From the NCBI GenBank assembly GCA_905182255.1, contig CAJJAH010000001.1:281508-345507 (forward strand): DNA of 64,000 nt, given 5' to 3'. How positions within the stretch are numbered: the first letter of the stretch is position 1; the number at the start of each line of letters is the position of its first letter. Position numbers and translations under genes: made by a program. Of this stretch, positions 43,034 through 47,842 are shown one piece after another. Origin of the DNA: Cryomorphaceae bacterium BACL11 MAG-121001-bin54. GTDB taxonomy: Bacteria > Bacteroidota > Bacteroidia > Flavobacteriales > BACL11. The notes under the pieces were generated by a model. That model had not been told where the DNA came from. It was given only the letters and a program-made list of their open reading frames with translations, and did no database searches.

Positions 43034-43828
43034 ATGAAAAATAAAATTTTAAACCTTTGCTTAATTGCAGTTTTAATTTATGCATGTAAAAATGAGGATG
43101 CAGATTTAACAAGTACCCAAGCAACACAAGATCACCTTTTTGCCGAGCAAACTTTTAGTGATGTTGGTAGAACTGTAAAAGAAGCATTTTTAGAAAATGG
43201 TGTTAATAAATCATGTGTTTCATACAGTTTAAAAAATGACAATACATTAGATATTGACACACTTATTATCAATTTTGGAGCAATTAATTGCTTACAGAAT
43301 GGAAAACTCAGAAAAGGAAAGGTGGTTATTACTTACAGTGGAAAATATAGTGACTCCTTAACTGTAATAACTACTACATTTGATAATTACTATGTAAATA
43401 ATAATTTAATTCAAGGGGAAAGTGTCCTAACTAATCAGGGTAGAAATATTGATGGAAATATGTGGTTTAATGTTCTTGTAAACAATTCAAGTATTATCAC
43501 CAAAAATGGTACAATAAACTGGTCTACAAACAGAAAAGAAGAATGGGTAAGCGGATTATCTACTTATGGAAACATAAGTGATGATATATACAATATTACA
43601 GGATTAGCAAATGGAATAGGAATAAATAACAATAGTTTTAGTGTGGATATTACGGATACTTTAAAAGTTGAATTGGGCTGCTTACCTTCTTGCATAATAA
43701 AAAGTGGTACTGCCAAAATATCGCCTAATGGATATTCAGATAGAATTATAAATTATGGTAATTCATTCTGTGATTGTAATTTTAATATTACAATTGACGG
43801 GACAAAATATCCTATAGTTCTAAACTAA
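43034..43828 (+). CDS. Lipoprotein of unknown function at the end of the folA run
   Basis: 264 residues with a lipoprotein signal (lipobox IYACK, Cys19). The mature part is beta-rich and has four or five cysteines including ELGCLPSCIIKSG near 212 and CDCNFNITIDG near 247. No family recognised. It starts 21 bases after folA and its last four bases overlap the convergent clpX, leaving no room for a terminator. Confidence 0.6.
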   Translation: MKNKILNLCLIAVLIYACKNEDADLTSTQATQDHLFAEQTFSDVGRTVKEAFLENGVNKSCVSYSLKNDNTLDIDTLIINFGAINCLQNGKLRKGKVVITYSGKYSDSLTVITTTFDNYYVNNNLIQGESVLTNQGRNIDGNMWFNVLVNNSSIITKNGTINWSTNRKEEWVSGLSTYGNISDDIYNITGLANGIGINNNSFSVDITDTLKVELGCLPSCIIKSGTAKISPNGYSDRIINYGNSFCDCNFNITIDGTKYPIVLN

Positions 43829-45054
43829 GCTACTTTTAGTTTAGTAAATGAATGTTTCGTAAGCTGCTCCCTAACATAAGTAGTTGTAATTCTTAGTTCC
43901 TTCTTACTTTCATCTGAAGGAAACTCAAACATAGCGTCTAGCATAATTGATTCACAAATTGAACGTAGTCCTCTAGCTCCTAGTTTAAATTCCATTGCTT
44001 TATCCACAATAATATCAATAGCTTTTTTATCAAAAGTTAAACTTATACCATCCATATCAAATAACTTTTGATATTGTTTAGTTAATGCATTTTTAGGCTC
44101 AGTTAAAATTAGCTTCAAAGCTGCCCTATCCAAGGGATTAAGATGAGTAACTACAGGCATTCTACCTATCAGCTCAGGTATTAATCCAAAAGATTTTAAA
44201 TCCTGAGGAGCTATATATTGTAGTAAATTTTCTTTATTAATTGCTCCCTCACTTGCTGACTTAAATCCGATAGATCTTGTATTCATTCTAGCTGAAATAT
44301 GCTGTTCTATTCCATCAAATGCACCTCCACTAATAAATAGAATATCTTTAGTGTCTAAGGCAATCATTTTCTGATCAGGATGCTTACGTCCTCCTTGTGG
44401 TGGGACATTTACTATTGTTCCTTCCAATAATTTTAGCATAGCTTGTTGTACACCCTCCCCACTTACATCACGGGTGATAGATGGATTATCACTTTTACGG
44501 GCAACTTTATCAATCTCATCAATAAAAACAATTCCTCTTTTTGCCTTTTCAATATCATAATCAGCCGACTGTAGTAATCTTGTCAAAATACTCTCTACAT
44601 CCTCACCAACATAACCAGCTTCAGTGAGTACAGTTGCATCAGCAATACAAAATGGAACTTTTAATAACTTGGCAATAGAACGTGCAATTAAGGTTTTACC
44701 CGTACCTGTTCGCCCCACCATAATAATATTTGATTTCTCAATTTCAATATCTTCTTCACTAGTATCTGGTTGTAAAATTCTTTTATAGTGATTATAAACG
44801 GCAACTGACATCACCCTTTTTGCATCATCTTGTCCGATTACAAATTCATCCAGATGCACTTTTATTTCCTTAGGTTTTAAAAGAGTAATATTATTGGCAA
44901 TAAAGACTTTATCAGATGCATCTTCTTTGACAATTTCATGCGCTTGTTCAATACATAAATCACAAATATGGGCAGAGGTACCTGCAATCAAGATATTAGT
45001 ATCTTGCTTATCTTTACCACAAAAAGAACATAATACTTTATCGTTTTCTGGCAT
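43825..45054 (-). CDS. clpX: ATP-dependent Clp protease ATP-binding subunit ClpX
   Basis: ClpX unfolds tagged proteins and feeds them to ClpP. The 409-residue protein has the N-terminal zinc domain [26 protein letters not shown] near 8, Walker A GRTGTGKT near 115, pore-loop [12 protein letters not shown], Walker [12 protein letters not shown] near 177, [19 protein letters not shown] near 195, and the IGF-like ClpP contact region [10 protein letters not shown] near 260. It directly overlaps clpP (stop/start share one base), forming the classical tig-clpP-clpX order. Confidence 0.97.
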
Positions 45055-45728
45055 TATTTTTTTCTTTCGAGTACCTCATCAATCATACCGTATGCTTTAG
45101 CCTCTTCAGCTGTCATCCAGTAATCTCTATCACTATCTTCCCATACTTTATCAAAATCTTGTCCTGAATGGTCAGCAATAATTTCATACAATTCATTCTT
45201 TAACTTTTTGATTTCGTTAGCAGTAATTTCAATATCAGAAGCTTGGCCTTGAGCTCCGCCTAAAGGTTGATGTATCATTACTCTAGAATGCTTAAGTGCC
45301 GTTCTTTTTCCTGCTGCACCAGCACACAATAGAACCGCTCCCATTGATGCAGCCATACCTGTACAAATCGTAGAAACATCAGGATTAATATACTGAATAG
45401 TATCATAAATACCAAGCCCTGCATATACGCCGCCACCTGGAGAATTCAAATAAATTAAAATATCTTTTTTAGCATCTACTGACTCTAAAAATAATAATTG
45501 CGCCTGAATAACATTAGCAACATAGTCGTTAATAGGGACGCCAAGAAAAATAATTCTATCCATCATCAAACGAGAGAAAACATCCATACTAGCAACATTC
45601 ATTTGTCTCTCTTCAATAATTGTTGGAGAAATATAGTTTCCATGAATTGAATTAAACTCATGAAGATGTAAGCTGCTTATACCTCTATGTTTTGTTGCGT
45701 ATTTTTCAAATTCCTTTCCGTAATCCAT
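45054..45728 (-). CDS. clpP: ATP-dependent Clp protease proteolytic subunit ClpP
   Basis: ClpP is the serine protease chamber of ClpXP. The 224-residue protein has RIIFLGVPINDYVANVIQAQLLFLE near 58, the catalytic Ser in CTGMAASMGAVLLCAGA near 123 and the catalytic His in KHSRVMIHQPLGGAQGQASD near 146, then Asp in DRDYWMTAEEAKAYGMIDEV. It sits 16 bases after tig and overlaps clpX. The N-terminal 35 residues before the core are slightly longer than in E. coli. Confidence 0.97.
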   Translation of the reverse strand: MDYGKEFEKYATKHRGISSLHLHEFNSIHGNYISPTIIEERQMNVASMDVFSRLMMDRIIFLGVPINDYVANVIQAQLLFLESVDAKKDILIYLNSPGGGVYAGLGIYDTIQYINPDVSTICTGMAASMGAVLLCAGAAGKRTALKHSRVMIHQPLGGAQGQASDIEITANEIKKLKNELYEIIADHSGQDFDKVWEDSDRDYWMTAEEAKAYGMIDEVLERKK

Positions 45729-45744
45729 GATAGTAGTTTTTGTG

Positions 45745-47097
45745 TTATTTTACTGATGCTAATTTAACAAATTCATCATAAGAAATGTTCTTTTCTGTTA
45801 ATTTGAAGTTTTCTTTATAAACGACTAATGTTCTTTCATCAAAAATCTGATCGTATATTTTCTTTCTTTCCTCTTCATTTTTAAGAATGTTTGTTGCAAT
45901 ATCAGTCAATTGCGCATCATCACTTTCAGGCTGACCATATTGTTTCATTTGTGAACTAATTAGCTTTTTGGCTTGATTTAAAACATCTTCCTGAGTAACT
46001 TTAACATCATAATTTTCTAAGATTTTGTTTTCAATCAATTGCCATTGTAAGCTTTTAGCATACATATCATATTCAGTTGCTAGCACTTCCATAGTAATTG
46101 GTTGTTCAGAAGTTTGAAGCAACCATCTTTTTAGGAAATCATCTGGCATTTGTAATTTTAATTTTTCAATAAAATAAGTTACTATATCATTCTTAAGCAT
46201 TCTATCACTTTCTCCAACAAACTGTCCTTCTGCTTCTTCTTGCACTTTAGCTTTAAATTGTTTTACATCTTTTACTGTTCCAACACCATAAACCTTATCA
46301 AATAATTCAGTTGTCAATTCAGCTGGAGCTAATTGATTAATATTTTTGACTGTAAATTGAAATTCTTCAGAAGTCAAATTATGTAAAACATCATGAGAAA
46401 CATTTAACATAGATCCTAAATCAGAATGATTCGTAAAAGCCTTCATCACATTTACATTAATTATATCATCCTTTTTAACGCCAATAAACTTCTTTTTAAT
46501 TTTTGTGTCTGAGATGTATTCCATAGCTACTGTTGCCTCATTTGAAATTCCATTTGACATTACATTTCCATCAACATCAAGCTGAGATATTGCACAAAAA
46601 ATTAAATCCCCTTTAACAGAAACCTCAGGATTACTCATTTTACCATAGCGCTTTGCAATATCAGTACAATATCCATCAACTAATTTAGCGTCTGCTTTGA
46701 TTTTGTAATAGTTTAATTTATCTTTAGATGTAATTTTTACATCAAAATCTGGTGCTAAACCTACCTCATATTTAAAAGTAAAGTCTTCGTTTTTTGCCCA
46801 ATCAATAGGTGTTTCGTCAATTGGTAAGGGAGAGCCTAAAACTCTTACTTTCTCAGTAGATATATGTTTATATAATTCATCCTGAAGTAATTTATTTACC
46901 TCCTCGACTAAAACAGAGGTTCTGTATTTTTTATTTATGATTCCCATAGGTGTTTTCCCTTTTCTGAATCCTGGGACGTCAGCAGTTTTACGGTAATCCT
47001 TTAATACTTTATCAACTTTTTCAGAATAATCTGCCTCTACAACCTCAACAGTAATGGTTGCCATTAAATTTTTTGCTTTGCTTTGTGTAAGTTTCAT
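45745..47097 (-). CDS. tig: Trigger factor chaperone
   Basis: Trigger factor binds the ribosome and shields nascent chains. The 450-residue protein carries the ribosome-binding signature DVPGFRKGKTPMGIINKKYR near 40 and the central substrate domain. The canonical FKBP-type proline isomerase domain is poorly recognisable in residues 150-245, as is usual in Bacteroidota. The C-terminal arms follow (LFDKVYGVGTVKD onward). It heads the tig-clpP-clpX operon behind a TATTTTTG box. Confidence 0.93.
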   Translation of the reverse strand: MKLTQSKAKNLMATITVEVVEADYSEKVDKVLKDYRKTADVPGFRKGKTPMGIINKKYRTSVLVEEVNKLLQDELYKHISTEKVRVLGSPLPIDETPIDWAKNEDFTFKYEVGLAPDFDVKITSKDKLNYYKIKADAKLVDGYCTDIAKRYGKMSNPEVSVKGDLIFCAISQLDVDGNVMSNGISNEATVAMEYISDTKIKKKFIGVKKDDIINVNVMKAFTNHSDLGSMLNVSHDVLHNLTSEEFQFTVKNINQLAPAELTTELFDKVYGVGTVKDVKQFKAKVQEEAEGQFVGESDRMLKNDIVTYFIEKLKLQMPDDFLKRWLLQTSEQPITMEVLATEYDMYAKSLQWQLIENKILENYDVKVTQEDVLNQAKKLISSQMKQYGQPESDDAQLTDIATNILKNEEERKKIYDQIFDERTLVVYKENFKLTEKNISYDEFVKLASVK

Positions 47098-47293: not shown

Positions 47294-47294
47294 G

Positions 47295-47376
47295 TACGGG
47301 TGGAGAGACTCGAACTCTCACACCTTACGGCACTAGATCCTAAATCTAGCGCGTCTACCAATTCCGCCACACCCGC
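47295..47376 (-). tRNA. tRNA-Leu (anticodon TAG)
   Basis: 82 bases, acceptor GCGGGTG/CACCCGT plus A. The stem CTAGA/TCTAG with loop TTTAGGA gives anticodon TAG. A long variable arm and T-arm GAGAGTTCGAGTCTCTC are present. Followed at once by a strong terminator. Confidence 0.96.
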
Positions 47377-47488: not shown

Positions 47489-47842
47489 ATGAGTTTATCA
47501 GCAAAAGGAAAGTTAACTAGAAAATTAAGCATAGAAAGCGGAACATCAAAAGCAGGAAAAGAGTGGAAAAAACAATCTTTCCTTATAGATACTGGAGCGC
47601 AATACAATCCTGAAGTTTGTTTTCAGTTATTTGGAGAAGATAAAATTGAAATGTTAAATCACCATAATGAAGGAGATCAGGTTGAGGTTTCTTTCAACTT
47701 ATCCTCAAGAGAATATAATGGAAAATATTTCCATAACATCGATGCTTGGAGAATTGAAAGCCAAGGAGCTGGAAGCCCAGAAATAGATGCAGCACCTGCA
47801 TTTAACGCACCTGCATCAGAAGATGATGACCTACCATTCTAG
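47489..47842 (+). CDS. DUF3127 domain protein with SSB-like acidic tip
   Basis: A 117-residue protein matching DUF3127 (GTSKAGKEWKKQSFLIDTG near 18, VCFQLFGEDKIEMLN near 43, GDQVEVSFNLSSREYNGKYFHNIDAWRIE near 63), whose beta pattern resembles an OB-fold like that of single-strand DNA-binding proteins. The tail is alanine-rich and ends ASEDDDLPF, very like the SSB C-terminal tip DDDIPF that recruits repair and replication proteins. The role is unknown, but DNA binding with an SSB-type interaction tail is a reasonable inference. It is monocistronic with its own promoter box. Confidence 0.85.
   Translation: MSLSAKGKLTRKLSIESGTSKAGKEWKKQSFLIDTGAQYNPEVCFQLFGEDKIEMLNHHNEGDQVEVSFNLSSREYNGKYFHNIDAWRIESQGAGSPEIDAAPAFNAPASEDDDLPF

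Follow-up and report, generated by a model that had tools for sequence, protein, structure and literature searches.

A DUF3127 protein with an SSB-type acidic tip as a probable housekeeping single-stranded DNA-binding protein of Bacteroidia

The single-stranded DNA-binding protein SSB is regarded as a universal component of bacterial replication. Like canonical SSB (PF00436 / TIGR00621), proteins of the DUF3127 family pair an OB fold, predicted in their case, with a disordered linker and an acidic DDLPF tip; they carry conserved aromatic residues, which one weak profile alignment would place on matching strands, and they have the near-universal distribution of a housekeeping protein. Unlike canonical SSB, they have a shorter body, turned up in our searches in Bacteroidia and in phages of these bacteria, and coexist with a canonical SSB in most genomes. 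A similar single OB fold occurs in PriB, which works with PriA and is among the top PDB matches of our DUF3127 model. In contrast to PriB, which to our knowledge lacks the acidic SSB tip, DUF3127 has both the disordered linker and the tip. PHROG 4932, the phage DUF3127 family, is the same family as the protein studied here over its full length, tip included, and its members are phage copies. The SSB label is already known for these phage members; the role in cells proposed below, the substitution for canonical SSB in endosymbionts and the pattern of tips appear to be new. In the literature searched, one paper mentions DUF3127 incidentally, in connection with a Pantoea phage SSB, and our searches found no experimental study of the family. 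From the analysis of a 64,000-nucleotide stretch of flavobacterial DNA (the window) and its relatives, we propose that DUF3127 is probably a tip-bearing housekeeping SSB of a separate lineage, which can stand in for canonical SSB and sometimes replaces it.

The DUF3127 gene and its acidic tip

The gene is an intact open reading frame (ATG to TAG) at 47489–47842 on the forward strand of the window and encodes a 117 aa protein whose C-terminus reads ...FNAPASEDDDLPF. In a Pfam profile search, DUF3127 (PF11325) was the sole family assigned (E 5e-27; 94.3 bits against a curated cut-off of 27; profile positions 3–85 of 85 covered), and canonical SSB (PF00436) gave no match up to E 10. NCBIfam returned no match. 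The protein matches PHROG 4932, "single strand DNA binding protein", at E 4.5e-27, with residues 6–117 aligned to positions 4–117 of 117 and the tip included; the match persists at E 1.6e-22 after removal of the tail. Sequence searches of the PDB, with the single protein and with a profile, yielded chance matches and no relative.

The gene adjoins clpX, clpP and trigger factor genes (43825–47097, minus strand), with a tRNA-Leu (tag) at 47294–47376 in between. The trigger factor neighbour is common to close relatives only. Neighbours of cellular DUF3127 genes, named by reading their sequences, include trigger factor, a transporter, and flavin-reductase-like, SufT-like and nth-like proteins. We set gene neighbourhood aside as an uninformative clue to function in cells, the neighbours being lineage-specific and unconserved across lineages.

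Residues 109–117 (47813–47839, forward strand) form the SSB-type acidic tip ASEDDDLPF; the tip of E. coli SSB is MDFDDDIPF (PMC7913777). A sequence-only reading of the window had pointed out this likeness, and the homologues bear it out: 120 of 124 distinct DUF3127 sequences across Bacteroidota end in PF. The same reading had named conservation in homologues, beforehand, as one point on which its proposal could fail, and the tip is kept, with an acidic-hydrophobic-PF ending in 115 of the 124. The terminal F is invariant in an alignment of 48 DUF3127 sequences, viral copies included. The background consisted of 958 further ORFs from the fetched loci, each ≥120 aa long. Fifteen of them have an acidic-PF ending, namely 14 canonical SSBs and one phage primase/helicase, which leaves a rate of 1 in about 944 outside SSBs. 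The ASEDDDLPF tip is no chance ending.

Predicted OB fold and kinship with canonical SSB

The window protein was modelled with AlphaFold2 from 48 homologues; the model shows a body with pLDDT of about 90 and a disordered tail. The body, supported by the model, Foldseek and the tail-free PHROG 4932 match, spans residues 1–92 (47489–47764, forward strand) and is predicted to consist of strands 3–12, 16–19, 25–34 and 42–48, a helix at 50–57, and strands 64–76 and 79–91. The linker that follows (residues 93–108; 47765–47812, forward strand) is disordered, with pLDDT of about 50 and no secondary structure, and varies in length and sequence between homologues. Nearly all of the top 50 Foldseek matches to the model in the PDB are SSB, PriB or RPA domains, at E of about 1e-4 and probability 1.0, with a TM-score of about 0.5 when the disordered tail is counted. 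The viral structural matches are DUF3127 and SSB. Model and Foldseek together predict an SSB-type OB fold, in agreement with the earlier remark that the body resembles one.

Six residues within this body, W26, Y39, Y76, Y80, F81 and W87 (47564–47749, forward strand), are aromatic in 98–100% of 56 representatives sharing <70% identity and are candidates for stacking on ssDNA. In one weak profile alignment, Y76 is aligned with W86 of the canonical SSB of locus L081, a residue that we take to be the equivalent of W88 in E. coli SSB.

The sequence evidence for common descent of DUF3127 and SSB is weak but repeated. Body-only segments of family members from genomes G329 and G333, locus L163 and a phage copy match phrog_44, a large phage SSB family, at 3e-5 to 2e-3; the body of the window protein alone reaches only 0.03. 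When G329, G327 and G383 were searched with a canonical SSB alignment at E ≤ 10, their DUF3127 genes alone were returned. In the complete G333 genome (344,793 bp), the best match of the SSB profile is the DUF3127 gene (E 0.006), which is also the sole ORF with a DLPF tip. Part of these one-way profile matches take in the tip. Direct hhalign comparison of the DUF3127 and SSB bodies was not significant (probability 3.4%), so the proposed homology rests on the fold, the family intermediates and the one-way profile matches.

Distribution in Bacteroidota and retention in endosymbionts

Of 297 sampled genomes of the phylum, 172 contain DUF3127, usually as one copy, as do all 22 near-complete close relatives; it is a single-copy, near-universal gene of Bacteroidia. 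Because PF00436 is present in 293 of the same 297 genomes, most Bacteroidia carry both proteins. The genus of the window genome also has canonical SSBs, and those of the genus relatives are tipped. PF00436 was not detected in genome G000, but that absence is meaningless since the genome is only 53% complete. In another genome, G136 (2.6 Mb), the phylum searches detected neither PF00436 nor PF11325.

We read the C-termini of canonical SSBs in 81 sampled genomes, 28 without and 53 with DUF3127. A tipped canonical SSB, one or more, is present in each of the 28 genomes that lack DUF3127. By the pattern used, ten of the 53 genomes with DUF3127 have none, although EEDLPY (G321) and DDDEPF (G280) are near misses. 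The end of DUF3127 was read in eight of these ten genomes, and in all eight it is DLPF or nearly so. The table gives a Fisher p of 0.013 with kinship ignored, and because the two genome sets are phylogenetically unbalanced, those without DUF3127 being largely from other clades, it is suggestive of tip complementarity between the two proteins rather than a test of it. A canonical SSB that is tipless and the only one found in its genome was seen at L193 (G012), L314 (G282), L254 (G007), L265 (G059), L200 (G330) and L146 (G386).

The endosymbiont family of G333 comprises 68 genomes, mostly of 0.17–0.6 Mb. PF00436 was found in one of them and DUF3127 in 64, with tips kept as FDDLPF and similar. 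The sole canonical SSB left in the family, in G386, is tipless, and the DUF3127 of that genome ends in FDDLPF. A full reading of the complete G333 genome revealed no SSB candidate besides DUF3127. A 309,299-bp genome of the same family (L141) encodes a DUF3127 ending in FDDLPF; 309,299 bp is the published length of the Walczuchella genome (PMC3971599), and ssb is tabulated as not annotated in Walczuchella, the Llaveia endosymbiont (PMC5016991). If DUF3127 is an SSB, this would explain how a Bacteroidetes endosymbiont genome without an annotated ssb manages. PF00436 likewise found no match in two larger, near-complete genomes, G329 (1.92 Mb, one contig) and G327, where DUF3127 was the sole SSB-like gene found. 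For some tiny genomes outside this phylum, no ssb at all is listed (PMC5016991). An SSB is thus no absolute necessity, and the keeping of DUF3127 does not by itself prove SSB function.

Neither PF00436 nor PF11325 was detected in four small endosymbiont genomes, G384 and G385 (300 kb, fragmented) and G392 and G394 (200 kb). In genus g170, which has the smallest genomes (170–200 kb), the acidic tip is intact in two of six readable DUF3127 tips. Several tails there (L133–L138) consist of long D/E-rich and lysine-rich stretches, and the DLPF end is often lost.

Phage homologues and alternative roles

DUF3127 homologues are found in phages of Flavobacterium, Cellulophaga, Maribacter, Tenacibaculum and Bacteroides. 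Close reading of its surroundings in four flavobacterial phages showed the gene near those for Erf and exonuclease VIII, RecT, YqaJ exonuclease, NinG and primase/helicase; these recombination and replication surroundings are the usual place of a phage SSB. Copies in Bacteroides/Phocaeicola prophages have no neighbours of that kind. The SSB label in phage records cites PHROG or Pfam similarity, and the label of PHROG 4932 itself appears to rest on similarity; we found no assays behind it.

The sequence-only reading had offered an "extra single-strand-binding" protein. Its single-strand-binding part is well supported by the fold, tip, aromatic residues, phage context and retention. "Extra" fits less well for a near-universal, single-copy gene of Bacteroidia that is the sole detectable SSB in many endosymbionts. 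From these observations we infer the ssDNA binding, oligomer state, partner docking and replication role of DUF3127. The OB fold would bind ssDNA via its conserved aromatic residues, and the flexible linker would present the acidic DDLPF tip to proteins of genome maintenance, which would dock on it as they do on the SSB tip. In Bacteroidia, the protein would work beside canonical SSB as a single-copy housekeeping gene; where canonical SSB is tipless or lost, as in insect endosymbionts, DUF3127 alone would supply the tip-bearing SSB function. Genomes with both SSBs, with a tip on only one of them, or with DUF3127 alone offer natural experiments. A stronger version, to which we give rather less than even credence, makes DUF3127 the main, essential replicative SSB of Bacteroidia and canonical SSB an accessory able to lose its tip or vanish. 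If true, a whole bacterial class would run its replication forks with an SSB whose family is still named for its unknown function.

Among other roles, that of a PriB-like or otherwise specialised OB-fold accessory, acting in the primosome or as a recombination mediator and without general ssDNA coating, would fit the PriB structural matches and the recombinases and primase/helicase that adjoin the phage copies. We consider it unlikely. The acidic tip is foreign to PriB as we know it, and a primosome-only role is hard to reconcile with the endosymbionts: PriA is absent from all ten tested genomes that keep DUF3127, and DnaG from four of these. In the four genomes without PriA and DnaG, the DUF3127 tips are FDDLPF (G383), FDELPF (G388), YDDLPF (G399) and FDDLPF (G400). 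Such endosymbionts, with the tip but without PriA and sometimes without DnaG, narrow which partner the tip cannot spare.

The sequence-only reading had also raised a decoy or regulator that competes for SSB partners through its tip without coating ssDNA. The close likeness of the two tips and the presence of canonical SSB in the same genus, where both proteins coexist, would allow for this, but the idea has lost nearly all its appeal. A decoy should not be the SSB-like gene that is kept once canonical SSB is gone, and with SSB absent from 67 of the 68 endosymbiont-family genomes there is nothing to compete with; moreover, the aromatic residues of the body are conserved and phages carry DUF3127 at SSB-type positions. 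An RNA-binding or other OB-fold protein using an SSB-like tip for another interaction is just as improbable: OB folds bind many ligands and two endosymbiont members show weak IF3_C matches (E of about 0.004), but we rejected that similarity as far below the family cut-off, the fold and family neighbours are SSBs, and the phage context is DNA recombination.

A few genomes depart from the usual single tipped copy. G330 (L336) and G323 (L351) have second, tipless DUF3127 paralogues, ending in HEESQSNE and KQRNQQIV, with the other copy elsewhere in the genome, and G318 has a short second copy (L349). In Cellulophaga phage Nekkels_1, the primase/helicase (L126:9384–11273) itself ends in an SSB-like acidic tip, EEEKEDEVPF, and lies near a DUF3127 gene.
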